A stretch of DNA of 38,867 nucleotides from IMG/VR virus record IMGVR_UViG_3300019132_000060, positions 1-38,867 of that record. One strand, 5' to 3'. Positions 786 to 36,725 of the stretch are shown here, piece by piece (positions within the stretch are counted from its first letter, which is position 1; every line of letters begins with the position of its first letter). The notes beneath the pieces are model-generated. The model did not search any database and was not told the origin of the DNA. It saw only the letters and a program-made list of their open reading frames with translations. The DNA is from a virus. The position numbers were made by a program, and so were the translations under genes.

Positions 786-1901
786 TTACTCAGAAAAGGC
801 ATTTTCAAATTGCATAAACATGTATTTATCATCAAGGTAGGGTACTTGCACTATTCTTTGTTTTTCAATCTTATAAATAGCTCTTCCGGGAATCGGTGGA
901 AGCTCTTCCGCTCCATTTTCATCTAATATGACTTGACTTGCTATTCGAGCTGCAGCTATAAACGACAATCTTGCCACTATGTTCATTTTTACCTGCATAG
1001 GTACAGCTTCTCTTGTTGGATATTGGGTGCAGTAAAATAGTCTATAACCCAACGCTCCTCCAATTCTTGCGATTTCTGATAAAGAAGATTGGCAAAACTT
1101 TGCATACCTCCTTGCATCACCTTCAATAATTTGTGGTGATAAATCCGCCCCTTCATCAACAATTACAAACGTTCTTTTATTAATTGAACTATTCACTATG
1201 TTTGTTATTCCGTTTTCACGAAACCGTTTTTGTCTTTTCTTCAAATCATCAACCAAATATGCTAATACTTCCGTTGCCTCATACACATCACTGGCAACCG
1301 CTTTTACCTGTGGTAATCCCATGTAATGGCCAAACTCCATACCACCCTTCAAGTCTAAAATAAAGAACTCAGACTCGTTCGGTTGATTCATAATTAGAGA
1401 ATAGATCATTTCTTTCAAAAAAACTGTTTTTCCAAAGCGAGTGACTCCACCTACTAAAAAATGAGGATATTTATCAAAGTCATGATATATAACTCCTTCG
1501 TGATTTTGGCCAATCGGCACTTCCCATGTACCAGATCTGACTAGGGTATTATCATAGTTCCATTTTCTTGGAAGCTTGGTGTTAAAAACTCTTATTTTTA
1601 AAGACCCGTTATATTCAATGTCAATGTTTTTGTTTAACGCTTCTTCTAATTCTTCTTGTATGTCCTCCACTTTCTTAGACTTTAACCCAAACGGTAAATT
1701 GTAAATGTATGTTGTATAGTTTCCTAATTCGCTTATGAGAGGTTTATTGATTAACTTTGGGTATACAGTTTCATTATCGTTTTGGATACTAATTCGACAA
1801 TTATGAAACGTTTTGTCAATTACATCTCGTTCATTTATCTTTCCTTTAGGGATAAATGCAGCGCCTATTACTAATGCAGGAGGTATTAACCATTCAAACA
1901 T
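786..1901 (-). CDS. FtsK/SpoIIIE-like DNA translocase ATPase
   Basis: A 371-aa P-loop ATPase. A short hydrophobic stretch opens the protein (WLIPPALVIGAAFI), a Walker A motif GVTRFGKT lies at about residues 153-160, and a Walker B-like stretch (TFVIVDEGAD) at about 245-254, followed by an FCQSSLSEIARIGGALGYRLFYCTQYP segment typical of FtsK/TraB-type motors (PF01580). It lacks the long membrane linker and gamma domain of chromosomal FtsK. ATG with AAGGTGGTGG upstream. It forms an operon with the 60-aa membrane protein just upstream and probably with the replication-relaxation gene downstream. Similar modules occur in Bacillus prophages near the lysis end, and in plasmids, where they are thought to move or replicate the extrachromosomal form; this role is inferred. 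Confidence 0.85.
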   Translation of the reverse strand: MFEWLIPPALVIGAAFIPKGKINERDVIDKTFHNCRISIQNDNETVYPKLINKPLISELGNYTTYIYNLPFGLKSKKVEDIQEELEEALNKNIDIEYNGSLKIRVFNTKLPRKWNYDNTLVRSGTWEVPIGQNHEGVIYHDFDKYPHFLVGGVTRFGKTVFLKEMIYSLIMNQPNESEFFILDLKGGMEFGHYMGLPQVKAVASDVYEATEVLAYLVDDLKKRQKRFRENGITNIVNSSINKRTFVIVDEGADLSPQIIEGDARRYAKFCQSSLSEIARIGGALGYRLFYCTQYPTREAVPMQVKMNIVARLSFIAAARIASQVILDENGAEELPPIPGRAIYKIEKQRIVQVPYLDDKYMFMQFENAFSE

Positions 1902-1917
1902 CTGTCCACCACCTTAT

Positions 1918-2100
1918 TTATAAGAATATTTTTTGAATGTAATCCAGTAAATACAAGATTCCACCTGTCTTTAAAATTTCCAACATTACTTTAACTGCAG
2001 TTTCATTAATCTTTATACCGTAGTTTCCTAGTACATGAATTCCTATTAAACTTCCACCTGCCATTCCAGTAGCCATCATGCCGAATATGAATGGGTCCAT
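1918..2100 (-). CDS. Small membrane protein upstream of the FtsK-like ATPase
   Basis: A 60-aa protein with a glycine-rich hydrophobic helix at residues 5-27 and a second hydrophobic segment near the C terminus (ILYLLDYIQKIFL). The ATG follows AAGGAG at 9 nt. It ends 17 bp before the FtsK-like gene, so the two are almost certainly co-transcribed, and it could anchor or partner the ATPase. No known family is recognised. Confidence 0.65.
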   Translation of the reverse strand: MDPFIFGMMATGMAGGSLIGIHVLGNYGIKINETAVKVMLEILKTGGILYLLDYIQKIFL

Positions 2101-2166
2101 TCAATCACTCTCCTTATCAGTGTTTAATACAGTGTATGCATGATTGTAAATATTATTGCTCGTATA

Positions 2167-2183
2167 TGTAAATTAAATTTACA
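2167..2183. promoter_or_regulatory. 17-bp palindrome TGTAAATT-A-AATTTACA, candidate operator
   Basis: A perfect palindrome in the divergent region between the FtsK-like operon (minus) and the XRE regulator (plus), with a partial copy TGTAAATAT at about 2145. An operator for the adjacent XRE protein is the simplest reading; this is inference from position and symmetry. Confidence 0.45.
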
Positions 2184-2231
2184 AAAGGAGAAAAAATTTT
2201 TAAAGAGAAATAGTAAACTGAGGTGAAAACA

Positions 2232-2441
2232 TTGTTAAAAAGTAACATTGGGGAATTAATAAAAGAAAGAGGTTTAATGAAATCATTTATTGCGCAAAAA
2301 TTAGGAGTAAGTGTCCACCAACTTAGAAACTACGAAACTGGCCATAGTTTAATACCCATGGATAAGGCTTATGCTTTGGCGAGCCTGTTAGGCGTAAAAG
2401 TAGATGATTTATATGAATTTACAGAGGATGAAAAGAAATAG
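2232..2441 (+). CDS. XRE-family HTH transcriptional regulator
   Basis: A 69-aa single-domain Cro/CI-type helix-turn-helix protein. The HTH covers about residues 5-60 (IGELIKERG..KSFIAQKLGVSVHQLRNYETGHSLIPMDKAYALASLLGVKVDDLYEF, quoted here in parts: the recognition helix is VSVHQLRNYE). I place the start at the TTG at 2232, because GAGGTG lies 6 nt upstream; the GTG at 2223 is part of that ribosome site. It is divergent from the FtsK-like operon with a 17-bp palindrome between them, and ends in a strong shared terminator. It probably controls one or both flanking units. Confidence 0.8.
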   Translation: MLKSNIGELIKERGLMKSFIAQKLGVSVHQLRNYETGHSLIPMDKAYALASLLGVKVDDLYEFTEDEKK

Positions 2442-2622
2442 ACCACTCTTGAATTAAGTGGTCTATTTCAGAAATTTTATTTTTTAGTTCATAATATATA
2501 TCTTTAACTGTTTTAATTGTTATTAATTGAAGAATTATTAATGTTGTTGTATAGATACTAGTTAATAATAAGGCCACGATACCAAGTGTTTTAATTCCTC
2601 GAATTAATTTTGTAAAAATCAA
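2419..2622 (-). CDS. Small membrane protein, related to the one at 5926-6078
   Basis: 67 aa from a TTG at 2622 that has GAGGTG 7 nt upstream; the longer reading from 2670 lacks a ribosome site. Residues 1-12 are basic (FTKLIRGIKTLG), then one strong membrane helix (about 12-35), then a polar, possibly coiled tail. The first 45 residues align with the small protein at 5926-6078: FTK....I.KLG, then a T-rich IYTTTLIILQL-type helix and a YY..KN tail. The 3' end overlaps the convergent XRE gene by 23 bp inside a shared terminator hairpin. Function unknown. Confidence 0.55.
   Translation of the reverse strand: MIFTKLIRGIKTLGIVALLLTSIYTTTLIILQLITIKTVKDIYYELKNKISEIDHLIQEWSISFHPL
2436..2468. terminator. 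Bidirectional intrinsic terminator
   Basis: AAATAGACCACT pairs perfectly with AGTGGTCTATTT (12-bp stem, 9-nt loop) exactly where the plus-strand XRE gene and the minus-strand small membrane protein converge. A/T ends of the stem supply a short U tract in either direction. Confidence 0.75.
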
Positions 2623-2723
2623 AATTAGACACCTCATTTTTATGTACAATTTATAATGCTTAAAATACATTATTATAGTTCCATTACGTTTGAAAAAAAT
2701 TCTTTAACGGTAAGGTGATAAAA

Positions 2724-2924
2724 ATGGAATTCGAGTGTAGATTAAAGTACATCTTTTTTGAAAAAAAAATTAAACAAACTGATTTTGCTAAGCAAATAGG
2801 GATAAGCTCATCAGCCATGAGTGGAATAGCAAACGGAAAAACCTACCCAACTTTTCAGGTCGCATATAAAATTTCAGAAGCCCTTAATATGGATATTAGA
2901 GATATATGGATTAAAAAAGATTAA
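2724..2924 (+). CDS. XRE-family HTH regulator (YozG-like size)
   Basis: A 66-aa single HTH domain of the Cro/CI type; the core reads TDFAKQIGISSSAMSGIANGK with a short C-terminal DIRDIWIKKD. The ATG at 2724 has AAGGTG 6 nt upstream; an upstream GTG at 2715 is part of that site. It is transcribed away from the small membrane protein at 2419-2622. Such stand-alone 66-70 aa XRE proteins are common phage regulators; the target is not evident. Confidence 0.8.
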   Translation: MEFECRLKYIFFEKKIKQTDFAKQIGISSSAMSGIANGKTYPTFQVAYKISEALNMDIRDIWIKKD

Positions 2925-2937
2925 AAAATATAAAGAC

Positions 2938-2951
2938 CACTCAATTGAGTG
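2938..2951. terminator. Palindromic hairpin CACTCAATTGAGTG after the XRE gene
   Basis: A 14-bp perfect palindrome 14 bp past the XRE stop codon. It lacks a clear T tract, so it is a weak or Rho-assisted terminator, or an operator. It shares ACCACT with the terminator at 2436-2468. Confidence 0.35.
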
Positions 2952-3044
2952 ATCCTACCAATATATGTGTTGATTAGGTGTTGTAAAATGAGTTATTGGT
3001 TATGGTTAATACCCACTTTCAACACAACTATCTTTAATTAGTTC

Positions 3045-5333
3045 TTAAAAATTATTACGTTCTTTTAGATATTTTCTTTTTAAGTATGTTATTGGAGCTT
3101 CATCAATGAAGTTACCGTCATTAAAGAATCTATTAGCTTTTATCATTAATGAAATTTTATTTAGAATTATGGCTAAATTACTCCTCTCCGTTTCACTAAT
3201 CAAAAATTCAACCCCATATTCAAAAATATTTTCAACAATTTCCTCATACCTCACTATTTTACCAACTAAATTTATTTCATTACCATTCAGTATAGTTTTA
3301 AAACCATAAATAATATTTTCATGTGGTTTTAATCTAAGATGACTTTGAAATCTAATACCCCCAAGTCCAATATCTAGAACCATAATTTCAGTTGTTCCAA
3401 GGTTAACCTTTTTACCATTGAAATTTAAAATTGTCATATTTGTACTCAACGGTAATTCAAAATTGATTCGATAATACTTTCTACGGTTAAATGTCGGTAT
3501 TGACTGATCATTTGGCTGAACTCTTTTAGCTTGAAACCATTTTATTAATTCTTTTGATGAGATTGGTTTACTAAAATAATAACCTTGAACGGTATCACAA
3601 CCATATTTTTTTAAGATTTCAAACTGTTCAATTGTCTCTACTCCCTCTGCAACAATAGTTTTATTAAGCCCTTTTGATAGCTCAATAATTGATTTTACTA
3701 TTATCTGATCTTCTCTATTCAAAGGAAGATTTTGTACAAAAGACCTATCAATTTTCACTGTACTCACAGGAAGTGTTTTTAAATGATTTATGGATGAATA
3801 ACCTGTTCCAAAATCATCTAAAGAAAAGGATAGACCTAGCTTTTCTAATCTATTAATATGATTATGGACCATTTTTTGCTTCTGCAAAACCGTACTCTCT
3901 GTTATTTCTATTTCTAAAAATGAGGGAGAAATATGATACTTCTTCAAAATATTTCTTATTCTATCTTCTAAAGTACTATTTACAAAATCTTTAGCAGAAA
4001 GGTTAATTGAAACCTTTTTAAATACTATACCTTTACTATTCCATTCCCTCATGTCTTTACAAACTGTGTTTATGACAAAATCGGCTATCTCGTTATGCAG
4101 CGAGCTTTGCTCAGCAATCGAGATAAATTCAAGGGGAGATATTTCACCCCAATTAGGGTGCTTCCAACGGACAAGTGCCTCAGCACTTTCTACCACTAGC
4201 CTTTTAATATCTACTTTTGGTTGATATTCAATATACAGCTCCTTTCTTTCAATTGCTCCATATAAATCATTAACTAATTGGAAATGCTTAAACGTTTCTA
4301 TATTCATTGAAGTTGAATACATTAGGAAACTAGATTTATCCGTATTTTTTGCAACCTTCAAAGCTGTTTGAGCATTTTTAATTAGATCAATTTTATTATC
4401 TGCATCGTCTGGAAACACACTTATTCCTATACTAGCAGTCAAATGGATACTAAAGTCTTTAATATGAAATACTTCTTGAATTTTATTAAGGATTTCACTT
4501 GCTATTTTTTTGTAATCCACTTGTCTATAAGATGTCTTCACAACCAAAAACCACTCATCACCTAGAGAACGAAACAGAAAATACTGTTCTTGTACAGTTT
4601 CAGATAGTCTTTTAGAAAGTTTTTTAATAATATCATCTGCTACTTTAAATCCTAAATTTTGAGTAATAAGATTAAAATCATCTATGTTGATGCAAAATAG
4701 AGCAAATCTATTCCTTTTGGCTTTACTTTTTTCAATTAGTTCCTTTAAATAAGCTCTACCATGATAAAAATTAGGAAGCTCTGTTAGCGAATCGTGTGTA
4801 GAAATGTACTTGACCTTATCGTTTAATTGAATATTTTGTGAAATGTCCTCAACAGATCCAACTAGAGAGTTTAATTTCCCCTCATCATCCCTAATGGCAA
4901 TGACTGTTTCTATCAGCCATTTCACTTTTCCTGTTGGTGTAATAATTCGATAGGAATGTCTCATTTTATCCTTTACAGTTAGTTCTGAGTACATATCGTT
5001 TATATCATACTGGTCATCAGGATGTAAAAGACGCTTCCAAATGTCAATGGTAATTTGATTTAGGGGGATTTCAAATATTTCACTCAGCTTTTCTGATGCA
5101 AAATTAATTCTGTTTTCCAGTAAGCTTATAGACCAAACGGCAAGGCCAATTTTATTTAGGATAAACTTAAAATGGGTTAATGCTTCTAGATTCTTTATAA
5201 CATGCGGTAGCTCACTATTAATCAAATGGGATTCTTGATTTTTAATATCACCTTCAAACTTATAATTATCTTTGTTTACACGCACTTTACCCCCTTTTTC
5301 AAAATTCTTTTTAAATAAGTCTACAAATTTCAT
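3045..5333 (-). CDS. PAS-GGDEF-EAL-PilZ cyclic-di-GMP signalling protein
   Basis: 762 aa from the ATG at 5333, chosen because AAAAAGGAG lies 9 nt upstream; a TTG-initiated reading from 5438 is possible but would run through a Spo0A-type box. Order: PAS (about 60-165), GGDEF (about 178-345), EAL (about 355-600), PilZ (about 620-735). The GGDEF signature is degenerate, RSLGDEW, so cyclase activity is doubtful. The EAL half looks intact: EALVRW, SINLSAKDF, LEIEITES, DDFGTGYSS, VKIDRSFV, VAEGVET and QGYYFSKP. The PilZ domain keeps RRKYYR but has DIGLGG where (D/N)xSxxG is usual. Predicted role: cytosolic cyclic-di-GMP phosphodiesterase sensing the nucleotide through PilZ and a PAS ligand. It sits alone between the prophage lysis end and its FtsK arm, so it is either cargo or an engulfed host gene. 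Confidence 0.9.
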   Translation of the reverse strand: MKFVDLFKKNFEKGGKVRVNKDNYKFEGDIKNQESHLINSELPHVIKNLEALTHFKFILNKIGLAVWSISLLENRINFASEKLSEIFEIPLNQITIDIWKRLLHPDDQYDINDMYSELTVKDKMRHSYRIITPTGKVKWLIETVIAIRDDEGKLNSLVGSVEDISQNIQLNDKVKYISTHDSLTELPNFYHGRAYLKELIEKSKAKRNRFALFCINIDDFNLITQNLGFKVADDIIKKLSKRLSETVQEQYFLFRSLGDEWFLVVKTSYRQVDYKKIASEILNKIQEVFHIKDFSIHLTASIGISVFPDDADNKIDLIKNAQTALKVAKNTDKSSFLMYSTSMNIETFKHFQLVNDLYGAIERKELYIEYQPKVDIKRLVVESAEALVRWKHPNWGEISPLEFISIAEQSSLHNEIADFVINTVCKDMREWNSKGIVFKKVSINLSAKDFVNSTLEDRIRNILKKYHISPSFLEIEITESTVLQKQKMVHNHINRLEKLGLSFSLDDFGTGYSSINHLKTLPVSTVKIDRSFVQNLPLNREDQIIVKSIIELSKGLNKTIVAEGVETIEQFEILKKYGCDTVQGYYFSKPISSKELIKWFQAKRVQPNDQSIPTFNRRKYYRINFELPLSTNMTILNFNGKKVNLGTTEIMVLDIGLGGIRFQSHLRLKPHENIIYGFKTILNGNEINLVGKIVRYEEIVENIFEYGVEFLISETERSNLAIILNKISLMIKANRFFNDGNFIDEAPITYLKRKYLKERNNF

Positions 5334-8749: not shown

Positions 8750-8783
8750 CCTCCTTCTTTTTACACAATTCGACAAAAGGAGG
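8750..8783 (-). promoter_or_regulatory. Leader hairpin able to mask the ribosome site of the 93-aa gene
   Basis: On the minus strand CCTCCTTTT (8775-8783) can pair with AAGAAGGAGG (8750-8759), which is the gene's ribosome site. The same CTCCTTTT can instead pair with an upstream AAAAGGA (about 8789-8796), giving two exclusive hairpins. TTGTCGAA lies in the loop (core 8769-8775). Confidence 0.5.
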
Positions 8784-8814
8784 GATTTTCCTTTTTTAAT
8801 CTCCCTTGAAGCAA

Positions 8815-21812: not shown

Positions 21813-23507
21813 TTAAATTACTTGGGCTCCCCAATCAGCTTCAGGATTCAACATATCTTGTTGTAATAAATAAACGGCATTAATTAAACTGACTACCATG
21901 TCCACTTTTCCTGCAGATTTCTTTTTATTGATGTATTTGTTTAAGTTTGTATCTTCTGTACACTTGGCGTTTTGAAAGTTTATTTCAAGCATTAGATTCT
22001 CATCGTATTTGAACCATTTTTTTAGAATGTATTCTTTTAACAATTTTGTTGGCATGTGCAGGACACTAGAATGTTGTCTGATTTCGACACATTCGTATCC
22101 GTTTGCTTCAAGTTTTTGTACAGTACTTAGCGCGTTATATCTGTCATATCCGATCTGAATTATTTCAACACCATATTTTTCTTCTAAAGTCATAATAAAG
22201 TTTTCTATGAAACTATAATCTATAACTTCATCACCACATTCGAAACATACTCCATCACTTATTAACTTGTTATAATCAACCTGTTCCCTTTTGATTTTAT
22301 ATTCCTTTCGATCCTTAGGGATAAAACCCCAAACCTTGCTGTATATAACTCCGTCTTCTTCAGTAACCATTGTAACAGCTGTATTATCATCTGTTTGTGA
22401 TAAATCTAAGCCAAGATAAACCCTTTTTCCTTTCCAAAAAGATAGATCTTCTTCCTTCTTACACTCTCTAACTTTTGTAATGTCAATATAGCCTTCTACT
22501 CCTAACCCTTTATATTTAATGTTATTGTGTTTACATAAGTAGTTTTCTCTTTTGTTTTCATACAAAATTGCCATAGTACGCATATCTTTAATGGCATCAA
22601 ATATGTGTTTATGAGCAACTGCAACGGGATTACTCTGGTATATAACTAAATCTTCTGTCTGCCATTTGTCATTCACTAGTAAATCGTCATCTGGTTCATA
22701 AAGCAATGAAAATCTTCTCTTGTTTTCAATGAGTCCATCTAAAACCTTTTTGGATATATCAATTTCATCAATCATCACATTATTATCATTGGGATATTGA
22801 GTACTAATGATGATTCCAAGTTTATTAAACAATGTAATTTGAGATGATCTCATAGCTTCAATTGGGTAGCTGTCCATCGCCCCTGCTTCATCAGCCAAAA
22901 ATGCGTTAGCAAGTTTTCCATCCATTCTATCTTCTGAATAAGCTAACGGAATGTATTCACTATCTGTTAGTAAACATCTAATTTCACTTCTTAAAATCTT
23001 AAACACATCTTCTTCTGCTAATACAGGACTAACTTTAATAATCTTTCTAATCGCAAGTTTAAGCTCACTTGATAGTTTTAAATCAGGTGCTACTGAGAAG
23101 AATCGACTAAATTGCGGATCAGTAAGTAGCAATAAAATAAAAATAACCGCAGAATTAAATGTTTTAAAATTCTTACGGCTAATTTCTAATAAAGCTGTCT
23201 CATAATATCTAATGTCTTGGTTTTTATCGTTTTTAAGTTTTGTACAAAAAATAGCAACAATTAATAACCAGGCGTAATCTTCTAATCCCTCATTCATAGG
23301 GCAGCGTAAATCTGGATGAATCATTAATTTTAACAATTTATTTAATTTATCAAACGCTTTATCATCAACAAATGCTTCTGGATCATGCCCATCGACAATA
23401 TCAATCCACGCTTTTGCTTGCTTTTTAACATACTTTGGAACCTTCCTATTCCCATCTAAAATGCACCATTGAGCATACCTATATGCCCTGCTCTTTTTAA
23501 CTTCCAT
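21813..23507 (-). CDS. terL: Large terminase subunit (Terminase_1 type)
   Basis: 564 aa. ATPase half with a Walker A-like ISRKNFKT at about 109-116 (the usual form is RKNGK[ST], so a Gly is replaced by Phe), a Walker B-like NAFLADEAGAM near 200 and SQITLFNKLGIIISTQYPN coupling region. Nuclease half has VYLGLDLSQTDDNTAVT (Asp ligand), then IIQIGYDRYNA and KVDMVVSLINAVYLL. It pumps DNA into the prohead and cuts it. Overlaps the small subunit gene by 11 nt. Confidence 0.93.
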   Translation of the reverse strand: MEVKKSRAYRYAQWCILDGNRKVPKYVKKQAKAWIDIVDGHDPEAFVDDKAFDKLNKLLKLMIHPDLRCPMNEGLEDYAWLLIVAIFCTKLKNDKNQDIRYYETALLEISRKNFKTFNSAVIFILLLLTDPQFSRFFSVAPDLKLSSELKLAIRKIIKVSPVLAEEDVFKILRSEIRCLLTDSEYIPLAYSEDRMDGKLANAFLADEAGAMDSYPIEAMRSSQITLFNKLGIIISTQYPNDNNVMIDEIDISKKVLDGLIENKRRFSLLYEPDDDLLVNDKWQTEDLVIYQSNPVAVAHKHIFDAIKDMRTMAILYENKRENYLCKHNNIKYKGLGVEGYIDITKVRECKKEEDLSFWKGKRVYLGLDLSQTDDNTAVTMVTEEDGVIYSKVWGFIPKDRKEYKIKREQVDYNKLISDGVCFECGDEVIDYSFIENFIMTLEEKYGVEIIQIGYDRYNALSTVQKLEANGYECVEIRQHSSVLHMPTKLLKEYILKKWFKYDENLMLEINFQNAKCTEDTNLNKYINKKKSAGKVDMVVSLINAVYLLQQDMLNPEADWGAQVI

Positions 23508-24036
23508 TAAGTGCCTCGAGTAGTTTGTTTGAAGTTTTCTCAGGTTTTTTAGGTATGCTTCTAAGTGCAGCTTGAATGGTCATGATATTCTCTTTTTCCA
23601 AATCAAACAGCATTTTTCTTTTAGATTGAATTTGTCTATCAAGAGCAATAATTTGTTTTTGCATGTTTGTTTTTATTTTAAAGTATTCAGAAGCACTTAA
23701 TTTTCCGTCCTGGTATTCCTTTTCAAGTTCTTTAAGATCGCCATAGAACTGTTCTCTCTTCTCCTCAAAATCTTTGCACTCAGCCTGTAATAAGCAATAT
23801 CGATTAATGACCGCCTCATAAATGCCATCATTCTTTCCAATCGACTTTAATAGTTTGTTGATTCTCAGAAATTCTTTATGAGCAACCGGATTAGCTTTTA
23901 CTTCAGGTCGTTCCTTCAATGCAACACCTGTAGCCAAAGCCTTTTCAGCTTCTTCTCTCTGTCTTAATTCTGCTTTCGTTCTATGAGATTTTTTTTCATT
24001 TTTTAAAACTACAAACGGTTTTGGAGGTCTTGACAT
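23497..24036 (-). CDS. terS: Small terminase subunit, P27 family
   Basis: 179 aa from ATG 24036 with AAAGGAAGTG 6 nt upstream; a GTG at 24045 is part of that site. Basic N terminus (SRPPKPFVVLKNEKKSHRTKAE), KANPVAHKEFLRINKLLKSIG segment and long charged helices, the P27/Terminase_4 pattern. It recognises the packaging site, which probably lies directly upstream. Confidence 0.9.
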   Translation of the reverse strand: MSRPPKPFVVLKNEKKSHRTKAELRQREEAEKALATGVALKERPEVKANPVAHKEFLRINKLLKSIGKNDGIYEAVINRYCLLQAECKDFEEKREQFYGDLKELEKEYQDGKLSASEYFKIKTNMQKQIIALDRQIQSKRKMLFDLEKENIMTIQAALRSIPKKPEKTSNKLLEALNGS

Positions 24037-24059
24037 TGAATTCACTTCCTTTCAAAAGT

Positions 24060-24143: not shown

Positions 24144-24536
24144 CTAGACTGTGTTCTTGACCTCTTGCTCTTCTGCTATTTCGAATAAGACTTGTCTTGG
24201 TATCTGATTTGATTCAGCTAATTCATGATGTATACGGCAAAGACTAATTAGATTGTTGTTGTCTAATCTTAAATTATAATCTTCAATGATAGGTACAATG
24301 TGGTGGACCTGAACATCATCGAAATTGTATTGTTTAAACGGGTTATAAAGTTTGCGTATACACATTTGACATAGATGTTTATCCCTTTGTTTAATGTATT
24401 CTCTTTTAACCTTCCAAGCATTAGTGTTTCTAAAACGATCAGCTTTTGAGTCTCTTTTTCTTCTAACATTTGGTTTACTTGGACATTGTTCTCCACGTCT
24501 ATGAATACGACCACAATAGCTACAGGATTTTAACAA
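24144..24536 (-). CDS. HNH endonuclease of the packaging module
   Basis: 130 aa from TTG 24536, with GGAGTG 6 nt upstream; upstream codons to 24566 lie in a terminator. Two zinc knuckles (CSYCGRIHRRGEQC and CQMC) and an HNH core: VHHIVPI, DNNNLISLCRIHHE. Such proteins are required with the terminase for specific cos cleavage in HK97-like phages. It begins the structural operon, just after a terminator that closes the Rex-like cassette. Confidence 0.92.
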   Translation of the reverse strand: MLKSCSYCGRIHRRGEQCPSKPNVRRKRDSKADRFRNTNAWKVKREYIKQRDKHLCQMCIRKLYNPFKQYNFDDVQVHHIVPIIEDYNLRLDNNNLISLCRIHHELAESNQIPRQVLFEIAEEQEVKNTV

Positions 24537-24551
24537 TTTAATCACTCCAAA

Positions 24552-24575
24552 TAAAAAAGCATCCAATTTGGATGC
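24552..24575 (-). terminator. Terminator closing the Rex-like cassette
   Basis: GCATCC-AAATT-GGATGC followed by TTTTTTATTT on the minus strand, 47 bp past the membrane-protein gene and directly ahead of the HNH gene. Confidence 0.85.
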
Positions 24576-24621
24576 AAAGGTTATATATGTTAGCCTCTTT
24601 TATTATGGGAATTCTGTTATA

Positions 24622-25155
24622 CTATTTATTTTTTAACTGAGGAGTATATACATCTTTATCCTCTATTAATGACTGGTCTTCTTTGTTATTAAAGAAAACT
24701 AAGAAGGAAACAAAAATAAAAATTGCATTCATAAATATAAACATTATAACTAAACTTGACCAGCAGCAATTCATTATTTTCAAATACATTGTTGGTATTT
24801 GGCCATTTGCTAAAAACACCTGATATACTATTGTTGAGATAACGGTTAAAAAACCAATAATTAATGTAGACGATACTACTACAATAAATTCCCTTTTATC
24901 TTCTTTGTCACTCATAATATCCTTTACTACTTTTGTATTAAAAATAGACGCAATTATACTTATACATGCCCCATAAAAACCTAAACTAATACTTGAAAAT
25001 AAGAGAACGCCATCAAGGGCCTTTTCGAAACCCTCGATAAAATAAAAATCAGTAAATACAAAAGATAATATTCCAACGCATATTGAAATTTTTAATGATA
25101 TTAATAGGAAAATATATGATATCCTCATATCCCTGAAAATATATGTCATCCTCAT
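24622..25155 (-). CDS. Four-helix membrane protein, possible RexB-like exclusion partner
   Basis: 177 aa with four clear membrane segments (about 14-34, 48-70, 92-114, 134-160). The loop after helix 2 is charged (NTKVVKDIMSDKEDKREF), and the C terminus is acidic and cytosolic. The layout (four helices, charged loop between helices 2 and 3, small size) matches lambda RexB and also KwaA. It starts 4 bp after the stop of the DUF6731-like gene, so the two form one operon. Start choice is uncertain because an internal ATG (DMRISYIF..) also exists. As a RexB-like channel it would depolarise the cell when triggered; that is inference from layout. Confidence 0.75.
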   Translation of the reverse strand: MRMTYIFRDMRISYIFLLISLKISICVGILSFVFTDFYFIEGFEKALDGVLLFSSISLGFYGACISIIASIFNTKVVKDIMSDKEDKREFIVVVSSTLIIGFLTVISTIVYQVFLANGQIPTMYLKIMNCCWSSLVIMFIFMNAIFIFVSFLVFFNNKEDQSLIEDKDVYTPQLKNK

Positions 25156-25159
25156 ATTT

Positions 25160-26083
25160 TCACATCCTTAAAATTTGCGTCTTAAATCCACCATCATCAT
25201 ACTTATTTTTCATCTCTTCAAAAACACTTATAGGAAGAAGTTGCCTATTCTCTCTAAAGTCAAATTCATGAAAAGTTTGCAACTTATGATCAATTAAATC
25301 AATAGGTTCGACTGCTCCATCCTCTTCTTCTCTTGCGCGAATTTGTAGCTTCTTAACATCATCATCATCAATGTACTCTTCTAATATTTGTTTAGCAAAA
25401 TCTTCGTCAAGTTTGCTCTCCTTTTGAATACTTGAGTTAAATGAAATTTCTATGGAATCTACATTAACATTGTCATTCCCATTTGTTAATCTTTCTATAA
25501 TTCCTTTTGCTTTTAGCCCAAACACTTTTAAGTGTATTTTTCTATATGCTGCTTGATTAAAAGCCCTTCTTCTAGCCGTAGTATCTTTTACAATTGCAAG
25601 ACTAAAAGTACCGTCAATTTCACCTACATATCTATTTATCATAGTATTCAAAAACATCTCTATACCTGAAGGACCTAAAGAAACCTTATTCCTTTGGATC
25701 ATAAAAATATGATTTACAGGATCATAAAGAACGTTAACGTCTAAACCAATATATTCATCGTCATTTAAATCAATTACCTCAGAATCTCCATGTAAAGTTG
25801 TTCTAAAAGGAACTTGATAATCTAACCTTTCAAAAATTAAATGGAAATACTGAGTACTATAATCAACATAAATGTCAGATAATCTTGCAGGCTCATTATT
25901 ATAACTGTAAATTAATTTAAAATTATTCGGTTCATTTTCTTCTGTTATTCTTTGTCTAGCAATAGAATATTCAGTTCTAATTTTTTCGAATATATCTCTA
26001 AAATTAAAAAACCTCCTGTCACCGTTTTCTAATTCAACTATCGGTCTAAAAAAGTTGAATCCAACTGGTTTTCTCTTAGCCAT
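25160..26083 (-). CDS. DUF6731-like cytosolic protein, possible RexA-like sensor
   Basis: 307 aa from ATG 26083 with AAAGGAG 8 nt upstream; an earlier in-frame ATG at 26107 is less supported. Soluble, mixed alpha/beta. I recall this as DUF6731. Points that echo lambda RexA in the same order: LGPSGIEMFLN, a DTTARRRAFNQAAYRKIHLKVFG strand pair, VDSIEISF..SSIQKESKLDEDFAK and IRAREEEDGAVEPIDLIDHK near the C terminus (RexA has LRAKDEAGD there). It is followed by a four-helix membrane protein. The unit is bounded by terminators and has a leader that can mask its ribosome site. Predicted prophage-encoded phage exclusion; Kiwa KwaB is the alternative parallel. Confidence 0.75.
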   Translation of the reverse strand: MAKRKPVGFNFFRPIVELENGDRRFFNFRDIFEKIRTEYSIARQRITEENEPNNFKLIYSYNNEPARLSDIYVDYSTQYFHLIFERLDYQVPFRTTLHGDSEVIDLNDDEYIGLDVNVLYDPVNHIFMIQRNKVSLGPSGIEMFLNTMINRYVGEIDGTFSLAIVKDTTARRRAFNQAAYRKIHLKVFGLKAKGIIERLTNGNDNVNVDSIEISFNSSIQKESKLDEDFAKQILEEYIDDDDVKKLQIRAREEEDGAVEPIDLIDHKLQTFHEFDFRENRQLLPISVFEEMKNKYDDGGFKTQILRM

Positions 26084-26089
26084 CAATAT

Positions 26090-26134
26090 ATCTCCTTTCG
26101 TCTCCATTATTCTCTATTTTCGACAAAAGGAGAT
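26090..26134 (-). promoter_or_regulatory. Leader hairpin masking the ribosome site of the DUF6731-like gene
   Basis: Minus-strand ATCTCCTTTTGTC (26122-26134) pairs over all 13 positions, with one G-U, with GACGAAAGGAGAT (26090-26102), which contains the ribosome site. The loop is 19 nt. The same CTCCTTTT could pair upstream with AAAAGG in the G-rich run at about 26140. Two TGTCGAA sequences flank the block (26119-26125 and 26153-26159, spaced 34 nt). Confidence 0.6.
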
Positions 26135-26171
26135 AATTCCCTTTTTTTACAATTCGACAAATAAAGACAAC

Positions 26172-26200
26172 AAAAAATAGCTTTCCTTACGGAAGCTATT
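26172..26200 (-). terminator. Terminator between the winged-helix gene and the Rex-like cassette
   Basis: AATAGCTTCC-GTAA-GGAAAGCTATT followed by TTTTTG on the minus strand, overlapping the stop codon of the gene at 26196. It makes the downstream cassette an independent transcription unit. Confidence 0.8.
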
Positions 26201-26438
26201 CTAATGATTCAACATAATCAATTCCAAACACAGTTGGTTTATATAATTTTGTCCTTCCTTGAGTACTTAACTGAAGTAACCCTTTTTCAACTAAATAATC
26301 ATATGCTAGCTTTTTTTCAATATTATCATGGTATTCGTCATAACTGACACCTAATGGATTACCATTATTCATGAAATAATGTTGATAAACACTTTTTAAT
26401 AAAACTTCTCTGTATTTTTTTCTCTCATTGTAATTCAC
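26196..26438 (-). CDS. Small winged-helix-like protein
   Basis: 80 aa from GTG 26438, which has GGGGTGG 5 nt upstream. Helical N-terminal half (REVLLKSVYQHYF), then KLAYDYLVEKGLLQLSTQGRTKLYKPTVFGIDYVE, which has the helix plus beta-wing look of a PadR/YjcQ-like domain; YjcQ-type phage proteins are similar in size. Soluble. It follows the lipoprotein gene by about 30 bp. Role unknown; DNA binding is a guess. Confidence 0.7.
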   Translation of the reverse strand: MNYNERKKYREVLLKSVYQHYFMNNGNPLGVSYDEYHDNIEKKLAYDYLVEKGLLQLSTQGRTKLYKPTVFGIDYVESLE

Positions 26439-26468: not shown

Positions 26469-26998
26469 TTATTGTATGCTATCTGGATAAACAATGGTTT
26501 TGAATACTTCACCAGTACTCGCATCTTTAACATTTACAGTTACTTTATAATCTTTAACACCATCAAATACTTGATAAAACATTCCGTTCATTCCTAATCC
26601 AAGTGCAGCGAATTCATCCATGCTATTTTCGTACGTTGCTTTATCTACAATCATTGTGAATTCCGTAAAAGAATCATTGTAGGTAATATCTTGAATTGAT
26701 GTAAAAGTAGTATCGTTTTTGATATCCTCGACTGCTTTCTTGGCCCCATCTGCCAATTCCTTCATCATTTCTTGATGTTTAGCTTTTGACATTTTATAAG
26801 TAACAGAACCATCAGCATTTTTGACAGCATCTTTAATGCCGTCTTTCTTAGCCTCTTCTATTGCTTGATCGATATCTTCTCCTTACCCTCTGATGCATTA
26901 ATTTTATCGTCATTTGATGCTTTTTCATTCTCACTGTTACAAGCAGCTAAAAATACTAACATAGAAAATACTAAAGATAATAAATAGATTTTTTTCAA
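26469..26998 (-). pseudogene. Lipoprotein gene broken by a single-base frameshift
   Basis: TTG at 26998 with AAGGAGG 8 nt upstream starts a lipoprotein: KKIYLLSLVFSMLVFLAAC is a signal peptide with lipobox LAAC. This frame stops at about 26857. The second frame overlaps before that and continues EDIDQAIEEAKKDGIKDAVK through the rest of the protein to 26469. Adding one base near 26884 (GGTAAGGAG to GGTAAAGGAG) restores 176 residues. The mature part is acidic and helical, then beta-rich (FTEFTMIVDKATY, YKVTVNVKDA). A sequencing error, real decay or unprogrammed slippage cannot be told apart. It would be a surface lipoprotein, such as a superinfection-exclusion factor. Confidence 0.7.
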
Positions 26999-27087
26999 TT
27001 TAATATCCTCCTTGTATATAAGTATTCTACCTATATACGTTGTTAACTGGAAATCGTTTCAAAAATTTTCATTTCAGATAGTCGCTC

Positions 27088-27497: not shown

Positions 27498-27529
27498 CCC
27501 CCTCTGTCTACTACATTCGACACAAGGAG
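27498..27529 (-). promoter_or_regulatory. Leader hairpin masking the ribosome site of the gene at 27250
   Basis: Minus-strand CTCCTTGTGTC (27519-27529) pairs with GACAGAGGGGG (27498-27508), 10 of 11 positions including G-U pairs, 10-nt loop. The two TGTCGAA cores at 27516-27522 and 27550-27556 are 34 nt apart, the same spacing as at 26119/26153. Confidence 0.5.
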
Positions 27530-27571
27530 ATTTATTTCTATTTCATTTATTCGACAAATACCGACATCCTC

Positions 27572-35929: not shown

Positions 35930-36157
35930 TTAGACTTCCCCCTTTTTTTGTGTAAAAAATGCACTATTTTCTTCAAAAAAAATGGTCCAATCAAATCCTA
36001 AATTGTGGCCTAAAGCTTTTGCTACTTTAACACTGGGTGTATACCCATTCTCAATTTTAGTGTAATATGACCGATCAATACCAACTTTATTTGCAACATC
36101 TTGGTGCGAATATCCCAATAATTTTCTTCGGTGTTTTAGAATATCAGGTTTCAACAT
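35930..36157 (-). CDS. Cro-like XRE regulator
   Basis: 75 aa, divergent from the CI-like gene. HTH at about 10-60 (HRRKLLGYSHQDVANKVGIDRSYYTKIENGYTPS). ATG 36157 with GTGAGG 5 nt upstream; the GTG at 36163 is part of the site. Acts as the lytic-side regulator behind the promoter at 36189-36217. One of the operator-like sites lies inside its 3' end (35950-35964). Confidence 0.85.
   Translation of the reverse strand: MLKPDILKHRRKLLGYSHQDVANKVGIDRSYYTKIENGYTPSVKVAKALGHNLGFDWTIFFEENSAFFTQKKGEV
35950..35964. promoter_or_regulatory. Operator-like site O4 GTGTA-AAAAA-TGCAC
   Basis: Same 5-5-5 half-site plan as the sites in the CI-Cro intergenic region; here it overlaps the 3' end of the Cro-like gene. 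Confidence 0.4.
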
Positions 36158-36171
36158 TCTCACCTCACTTT

Positions 36172-36186
36172 GTGTAAATTATACAC
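36172..36186. promoter_or_regulatory. Operator-like site O1 GTGTA-AATTA-TACAC
   Basis: Best match to the 5-5-5 dyad GTGYA..TRCAC. It covers the expected start of the Cro-side transcript, 10 nt after the -10 box. Confidence 0.65.
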
Positions 36187-36188
36187 TG

Positions 36189-36217
36189 ATTATATAGTGC
36201 AATTTTTACACTGTCAA
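36189..36217 (-). promoter_or_regulatory. Early lytic promoter TTGACA-17-TATAAT
   Basis: A consensus sigma-A promoter on the minus strand: -35 TTGACA (36212-36217) and -10 TATAAT (36189-36194) with exactly 17 bp between. The spacer is filled by O2 and O1 sits at the start site, so the CI-like repressor should shut it off. Confidence 0.9.
36197..36211. promoter_or_regulatory. Operator-like site O2 GTGCA-ATTTT-TACAC
   Basis: 15-bp dyad filling the spacer of the early promoter; 25 bp centre to centre from O1. Confidence 0.65.
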
Positions 36218-36252
36218 TATTTTTTGTTATTTTTTTGCACAATTATATTTTA

Positions 36253-36267
36253 GTGCATATTTTTCAC
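36253..36267. promoter_or_regulatory. Operator-like site O3 GTGCA-TATTT-TTCAC
   Basis: Third dyad, one mismatch, just upstream of the likely TATAAT (36269-36274) of the CI-like gene; suits self-regulation of the repressor. A weak -35 suggests activation or low basal use. Confidence 0.5.
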
Positions 36268-36305
36268 TTATAATATTAAGTAAATTTAGAGTAGGAGTTA
36301 TTAAT

Positions 36306-36725
36306 ATGAACTATGGTGATAGATTAAAAAATCTAAGAGAAAATAAAAAGTTATCTCAACAACAACTTGCAGATAAATTAAAAATTAATCGATCCACATA
36401 TGCCCGCTACGAATTAAATCAAACGCAACCTGATATTGAGACACTAAAAATGATTGCCGACTTTTATGAAGTTACTACTGACTATATTGTTGGAAGAACT
36501 AATTACATGCAAGAATCTAACAAAAATGTGAGCGTAAATGAAAGTCACGGAACTTATAATTCTTTAGATGAAATTTCAAAATTAATTAAGCAATTTGGTA
36601 TAGAAGATATTGGATTTTTTGATATTGAAAAGTGGAAGAATCTCAAACCAGAAGATGTCGAAGAAATTCGTAAACACTTTGAATGGGTTGCTTATAAAGC
36701 TAAAGAACGCAACAAAGAGAAATAG
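36306..36725 (+). CDS. CI-like XRE repressor
   Basis: 139 aa: HTH at 5-60 (LRENKKLSQQQLADKLKINRSTYARYELNQTQP), a DYIVGR junction, and a C-terminal acidic region (EDIGFFDIEKWKNLKPEDVEEI). No S24 peptidase domain, so it cannot cut itself; an ImmA-type partner follows. ATG behind TAGGAG at 8 nt. It should bind O1-O3 and keep the lytic promoter silent. Confidence 0.88.
   Translation: MNYGDRLKNLRENKKLSQQQLADKLKINRSTYARYELNQTQPDIETLKMIADFYEVTTDYIVGRTNYMQESNKNVSVNESHGTYNSLDEISKLIKQFGIEDIGFFDIEKWKNLKPEDVEEIRKHFEWVAYKAKERNKEK

Follow-up and report, generated by a model that had tools for sequence, protein, structure and literature searches.

What role could a soluble protein and a small membrane protein, encoded side by side at the edge of the packaging genes, play in a phage? 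The question is raised by the window analyzed here, a virus record of 38,867 bases taken at its full length, in which a compact two-gene cassette runs along the minus strand. An earlier note on this DNA had read the cassette as Rex-like, and this reading is supported by a RexA-like predicted structure of the soluble protein, by the co-occurrence of the two genes at other loci, and by sequence segments that fall in register with RexA. We consider it likely that the two genes make up a RexAB-type system of abortive infection (phage exclusion), a self-contained moron predicted to reside in a temperate Bacillota phage. Its placement among RexAB systems is based on the soluble protein and on the coupling of the two genes. 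By analogy, such a Rex-type pair probably stops other phages through damage to the cell membrane.

A paper of January 2026 counts only five described RexAB-like systems, in λ, Pseudomonas putida, and actinophages (PMC12894663). If the DUF6731 family, to which the soluble protein belongs, is a relative of RexA, Rex would turn from a curiosity into a widespread type of defence, present in Bacilli, phages, and plasmids. A RexAB system in Bacillota would also bring Rex within reach of Bacillus subtilis genetics, and new partners would then serve to test two 70-year-old questions, the trigger of RexA and the mode of action of RexB.

Layout of the cassette and its carrier phage

Both ORFs of the proposed two-gene cassette are confirmed on the minus strand, 4 bp apart. 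From its first in-frame ATG, the soluble ORF spans 25160–26107 (315 aa); the preferred start, at 26083, is preceded by a AAAGGAGA Shine-Dalgarno sequence and yields a predicted RexA-like sensor of 307 aa (25160–26083, minus), identified by Pfam DUF6731, an AlphaFold2 (AF2) model, Foldseek, VIA, and hhalign. The downstream gene (24622–25155, minus; 177 aa) encodes a predicted RexB-like four-helix membrane protein, recognized by the position of its ORF, its AF2 model, and homologous partners elsewhere. Flanking terminators had also been proposed, and a hairpin was found on each side. At the cassette end, an intrinsic terminator (24552–24575, minus) consists of a 7-bp stem at 24559–24575 followed by TTTTTTATTT, with a fold z-score of -2.6, while the upstream terminator-like hairpin (~26174–26202, minus) can fold on either strand (z -2.8 and -3.0) and ends the 26196–26447 gene. 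A stretch of 5.4 kb contains three terminator-like sites where 1.4 would be expected, by itself no strong excess.

The cassette had been thought to lie among the packaging genes, a placement that has to be revised: it sits at the upstream border of the HNH-TerS-TerL group, outside the packaging operon. The HNH gene (24144–24566) is directly downstream, followed by a terminase small subunit-like gene with a weak match (23497–24045) and the terminase large subunit gene (21813–23507). The phage genes include a CI-type HTH protein, an IrrE-type peptidase, and a serine recombinase, and are consistent with a temperate phage; the cassette lies ~10 kb from the repressor region (25160–26083 vs. 35930–36725). 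Phages with related terminase DNA proved too divergent to display the locus without the cassette. Two other features of the window deserve mention: a lipoprotein-like gene with an LAACNS lipobox (26469–27000, minus), apparently frameshifted near 26880, and, at the record end (1–1901, minus), genes for an FtsK/SpoIIIE-type ATPase and, next to it, a weak match to Replic_Relax, both of a plasmid- or ICE-like kind.

The DUF6731 family and λ RexA

The soluble protein is a clear member of Pfam DUF6731 (PF20505), which it matches with an E-value of 2.3e-42 and 145.9 bits (cut-off 27) over model positions 2–290 of 295, and of phrog_10865 (E 4.8e-84), a PHROG without an assigned function. Neither cassette protein matches NCBIfam or any PADLOC model, including those of Kiwa and PDC-M67A/B. 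Taken alone, the window soluble protein stays below the PADLOC and Pfam RexA models, finds no match in the PDB by phmmer, and yielded no relatives in single-sequence pattern scans of two contig collections; a five-sequence alignment was needed to reach its relatives, at 18 viral and 16 genomic loci. Annotated phages with a relative are few, namely Aeribacillus phage AP45 (66% identity), Streptococcus prophage Javan1, and two Listeria phage records, and one plasmid (from Niallia) carries the pair. A Pfam-model search of whole genomes found DUF6731 in 17 of 399 Bacilli genomes (roughly 4%; the class to which a Bacillus locus belongs), in 3 of 391 genomes of the class that includes a Caloramator locus, and in 11 of 299 genomes of one order, all three counts including the seed genomes. 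Methanocaldococcus jannaschii, used as a control genome, matches DUF6731 without reaching the curated cut-off. A literature search found no paper on DUF6731, on PDC-M67, or on SigH/Spo0A in connection with phage defence.

Structure prediction, which the earlier note had called for, points to RexA. The AlphaFold2 model of the soluble protein, built from a 26-sequence input, has a mean pLDDT of 82 and a pTM of 0.71, and a Foldseek search of the PDB returned two matches with E <1e-3, both of them chains of λ RexA (8TWQ; 2.9e-8 and 5.7e-7), making 8TWQ the sole significant PDB entry. A VIA alignment to 8TWQ_B covers 242 residues with a Z-score of 13.5, ahead of CHL4 (9.4), IML3 (8.3), CENP-N (7.7), and RdgC (6.4). 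RdgC, IML3, and CHL4 are themselves reported as RexA relatives in the RexA crystal paper (PMC11077077). The rmsd across both domains is 17 Å; in the model, the domain arrangement is thus different from that of the RexA crystal. RexA has been proposed to undergo a large hinge motion between the closed form seen in the crystal and an open form (PMC11077077), and a rotation of this kind may explain the different arrangement in the model.

Sequence profiles lead to the same protein. Searching the PDB with a DUF6731 profile (hmmsearch) placed RexA on top, with a weak but collinear match (E 0.17), while hhalign of DUF6731 against four enterobacterial RexA sequences gave Prob 92.4 and E 5.2e-7 over 262 columns, end to end. 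The native score of 51.4 (51–53) compares with a mean of 13.6 and a maximum of 21.05 in 100 column shuffles, 11.5 for the reversed profile, and 11.6 for KwaB; identity between the soluble protein and RexA is 13–15%. Three segments that the earlier note had matched to RexA, in order, all fall in register in the profile–profile alignment: GPSGIEMFL with RexA GPTTSDLTDFL, TTARR..RKIHLKV with TTKDD..GRTTVKV, and IRAREEEDG with LRAKDEAGD. The strongest signature common to both proteins, L-x-[DE]-D-E-x-x-G, was absent from that list. It occupies residues 106–113 of the window protein and 82–89 of RexA (L82ADDESLG89), within the family signature DLNDDEYIG (residues 105–113; 25745–25771, minus) that aligns with RexA SLADDESLG, and its residues L106, D109, E110, and G113 are invariant in 26 sequences.

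Further along the alignment, R249 and R251 of the window protein coincide with RexA R219 and K221; the K221 position is Lys/Arg in 23 of 26 family members, and the R219 position is variable. RexA requires R219 and K221 for DNA binding in vitro, and the double mutant loses both DNA binding and T4rII exclusion (PMC11077077). According to the RexA authors, exclusion does not track DNA binding (PMC11077077), so this match supports homology more than mechanism. In PADLOC, one member of the DUF6731 family matches RexA at 1.8e-4, and the PADLOC RexA model had no match in 21 Bacilli genomes, in a search run without a positive control. At the profile level, DUF6731 and the RexA-like proteins of actinobacteria are not similar in sequence, and λ RexA is likewise unalignable with actinobacterial RexA by the same method. 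As judged from the predicted fold and the full-length sequence profile, the DUF6731 protein is a homologue of λ RexA.

The membrane partner, its gene neighbourhood, and the leader

The RexB plan ascribed to the membrane partner agrees with its topology. Four helices are predicted (12–34, 43–71, 84–117, and 122–155), and the AF2 model (pLDDT 78) is also a four-helix structure. The start of the gene is uncertain because of a near-duplicate of ~27 nt at 25090–25160 (minus; MRMTYIFRD then MRISYIF); the AP45 homologue begins at the equivalent of window Met10, and the true start may lie ~27 nt further in. Profile comparison of the partner with RexB, using three query profiles and reversed controls, stayed at chance, that with actinobacterial RexB-like proteins was near the reversed-control level, and that with KwaA gave no significant match. 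Short membrane proteins diverge fast, and four-helix topology is common. P. putida RexB is likewise unrecognized by HHpred (PMC12894663), and given this and the unalignability of the λ and actinobacterial RexA proteins, the null result says little about homology between the partner and RexB. At one planctomycete locus (L034), the partner matches PADLOC RexB at 2.3e-4. The membrane model has its best PDB matches in NINJ1 and oxidase subunits; we set these aside as generic for helical bundles. The best viral fold matches of the membrane and soluble models come from one phage, ctylc9, which, on these models, is a further instance of the pair.

A survey of genomic context, also proposed earlier, found a membrane protein directly downstream at about 40 DUF6731 loci. 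Wherever the downstream sequence could be read, the membrane ORF begins -29 to +56 bp after the DUF6731 gene, even where the partner is unannotated (as in Javan1), so the pairing is more than chance; in one locus (L051), the partner frame looks broken. The closer partners can be aligned with each other and keep an SSI-xx-GF core, and distant DUF6731 members have longer partners of 214–236 aa. In AP45, Javan1, and a Listeria phage, the pair lies upstream of the terminase genes, as in the window. Across 29 non-phage loci, the commonest recognizable neighbours are type I restriction–modification (R-M) subunits (five N6_Mtase and four Methylase_S neighbour proteins), followed by IrrE, terminase, portal, and recombinase families. 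Since genomes carry few type I systems, we infer that finding five type I methylases in the ~5-kb surroundings of 29 loci greatly exceeds what chance would give. For instance, the pair on the Niallia plasmid directly precedes hsdM, hsdS, and hsdR. Upstream of this pair and its type I R-M genes lies a DUF6710 gene (L005, 3272–4064) with the promoter motif described below, a candidate further defence gene.

The leader of the soluble gene contains a sigma-H-like promoter motif, AAAGGGAAT-N11-GTCGAAA (~26116–26144, minus), with its core, AGGGAATTATCTCCTTTTGTCGAA, at 26119–26142. Its TGTCGAA element resembles a Spo0A box. The motif departs by one mismatch from the published sigma-H consensus, (A/G)(A/C)AGG(A/G)(A/T)(A/T)(A/T)-N11-12-(A/G)(A/G)(A/C)GAA(A/T) (PMC4754846). 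The pattern AGGAWWW-N10-TGTYGAA, with the ten middle bases left free, occurs at 18 exact places in the DNA examined, 12 of whose loci had been chosen with a related pattern, and its mirror image at none. In a census near gene starts that excluded the pattern-chosen loci and allowed one mismatch, the motif stood near the start of 11 DUF6731 genes (those of the window and of loci L002, L005, L011, L012, L026, L027, L028, L104, L111, and L114) and of 5 of the remaining ~600 ORFs, and the mirror pattern occurred once. These five are a kwaB gene (L091), two genes of the Niallia island (the DUF6710 gene and a second one, in which the motif falls within the called ORF start), and two small ORFs of the window phage (8459–8740 and 27250–27498). 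A tighter pattern gave one or two sites in 8 of 41 genomes sampled from the order, and its mirror gave none. Within the window, extra copies of the motif at 8769–8792 and 27516–27539 (both minus; the latter departs from the tighter pattern at two positions) are each followed 17–28 nt on by a small ORF (93 and 82 aa) with a Shine-Dalgarno sequence and no known function. The L091 copy, at 2320 (minus), lies just upstream of a Bacillota kwaB ORF (1249–2292, minus), hinting at a promoter type common to different defence systems.

The same leader holds a 14-bp inverted repeat (26089–26135, minus) through which the spacer strand at 26122–26135 can pair with the ribosome-binding site at 26089–26102; the predicted hairpin has a folding energy of -19.2 kcal/mol (z -4.6). 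It is not a catalogued element, as Rfam found no known RNA family in the window. Across the sites, the promoter spacer is often CTCCTTT, able to pair with the ribosome-binding site, and the arms of one site pair better with each other than with arms exchanged from another site (mean -7.6 vs. -6.6, p 0.0015, n = 28), a statistic inflated by some sites being related and some having been chosen by a pattern that contains CTC. One site (L120) has a matching change, CACC/GGTG. We discarded the idea that the hairpin acts as a riboregulator on the mRNA of its own gene: a sigma-H start would leave the upstream arm outside the transcript made from that gene's promoter. Transcription starting a few bases after the -10 element would confine the upstream arm to read-through RNA, so that the hairpin would form in RNA from phage late or neighbouring promoters and shut the ribosome-binding site, with the gene's own mRNA left translatable. 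A sigma-H-type promoter with the Spo0A-box-like TGTCGAA over its -10 element would switch the genes on at the transition to stationary phase. We put forward as a tentative and still rather doubtful generalization that a set of accessory defence genes of Bacillota (DUF6731 pairs, at least one Kiwa, the DUF6710 gene, and other small phage genes) shares a sigma-H/Spo0A-box-like promoter device that silences read-through RNA. If true, a lethal exclusion system would be kept silent during the prophage's own lytic cycle, a possible answer to how a prophage can afford a suicidal defence that might otherwise poison that cycle.

Proposed mechanism, rival readings, and known systems

The described RexAB systems have the same two-gene plan, and in most of them RexA triggers membrane damage through RexB (PMC12894663); those of λ, P. 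putida, and actinophages are the source of the mechanistic analogy drawn here (PMC12894663, PMC6426596). In the lysogen, the sigma-H-like promoter of the pair would drive its transcription independently of the late operon, and transcripts entering from upstream would be poorly translated through pairing of the promoter strand with the ribosome-binding site. The DUF6731 protein would serve as a dimeric, hinge-opening, DNA-binding sensor and the membrane protein as a normally silent channel. A signal from an infecting phage would cause the sensor to open the channel, and the open channel would depolarize the membrane, stopping both growth and phage replication.

A RexA-family pair might instead serve mainly in prophage control, acting through DNA binding on the lysis–lysogeny switch or on induction, with exclusion a by-product. 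Indeed, λ RexA biases the CI-Cro switch, and exclusion is perhaps incidental according to the authors of its structure (PMC11077077). However, the distance of the pair from the repressor region (~10 kb), as well as plasmid and chromosomal pairs that stand beside type I R-M genes with no prophage switch evident, make such a primary role unlikely. A different division of labour has been described for gp30/gp31 of mycobacteriophage Butters, in which the soluble protein acts as the toxic effector, held in check by the membrane protein as its inhibitor (PMC12894663). Strict gene coupling fits this arrangement too, and the present findings do not separate it from the model with RexB as effector; yet the membrane protein is the effector in most other described RexAB systems (PMC12894663), and we regard a Butters-like arrangement as distinctly unlikely.

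The pair could also be a non-defence accessory, such as a membrane complex for phage assembly or DNA metabolism, that shares with RexA only the RexA/RdgC fold. RdgC and kinetochore proteins have this fold and do other jobs, and the cassette adjoins packaging genes. Against such a role stand the patchy distribution (17 of 399 Bacilli genomes), the plasmid and R-M island locations, the pair's own terminators and promoter-like motif, and a RexA match far above that of RdgC, which together render it very unlikely. Kiwa, with a KwaB-like soluble and a KwaA-like membrane protein, had been named as the competing match. It has the same two-part plan of a multi-helix membrane protein and a soluble protein of ~310 aa, and one Bacillota kwaB (L091) has the same promoter motif upstream, but sequence profiles lead us to reject it: hhalign of DUF6731 against five KwaB sequences (PF16162) gave Prob 0.1 and a score of 11.6–12.7, the level of shuffled profiles, the partner compared with KwaA at chance, and PADLOC reported no Kiwa match. 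KwaB is missing from the fold-match lists, a result that excludes nothing by itself and was not used against Kiwa. It is hardly credible that the cassette is a Kiwa system.

The RexAB-type reading can be placed among the named systems as follows. Kiwa (KwaA/KwaB) resembles the cassette in combining a membrane and a soluble protein and differs in having no detected sequence relation to it. PDC-M67A/B, a PADLOC candidate defence system, is reached through distant DUF6731 relatives: L060 and L074 match PDC-M67 models, the L074 pair (1408–3196) at 1e-51 and 1e-40, whereas neither window protein matches them. These matches suggest that PDC-M67 is another, Rex-related branch of the same superfamily. 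The actinophage systems, Sbash gp30/gp31 and CarolAnn gp44/gp43, have the same two-gene plan and four-helix membrane partner, in which the loop between helices 2 and 3 is functionally important, and the Sbash pair also lies away from the repressor; unlike the other likenesses, sequence similarity at the profile level is absent for either protein. Among the weak fold matches of the window partner is an Sbash protein of 165 aa, as long as gp31 (TM 0.54, E 2.9).

RexABpp of P. putida (PP_5643–5644; PMC12894663), likened here by description, is a prophage pair of a RexA-like DNA-binding protein and a four-helix membrane protein. Its link to RexA was likewise made through profile and structure comparison, its membrane partner having no recognizable RexB homology, and it differs in lying downstream of a CI-like repressor. 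With λ RexA/RexB (PF15969/PF15968), the cassette has in common the RexA fold, a full-length collinear profile, the DDE-x-x-G signature, a basic residue at the K221 position, a four-helix membrane gene directly downstream, and a temperate phage as carrier. In contrast, the λ pair is enterobacterial and stands next to cI, whereas the window pair is assigned to Bacillota and lies upstream of packaging genes, with a soluble protein of 307 aa at 13–15% identity, a sigma-H-like promoter motif of its own, and a partner without detectable sequence relation to RexB. The cassette is probably a Bacillota branch of RexAB, unlabelled in Pfam and PADLOC, for which the assignment is new and the plan is known.
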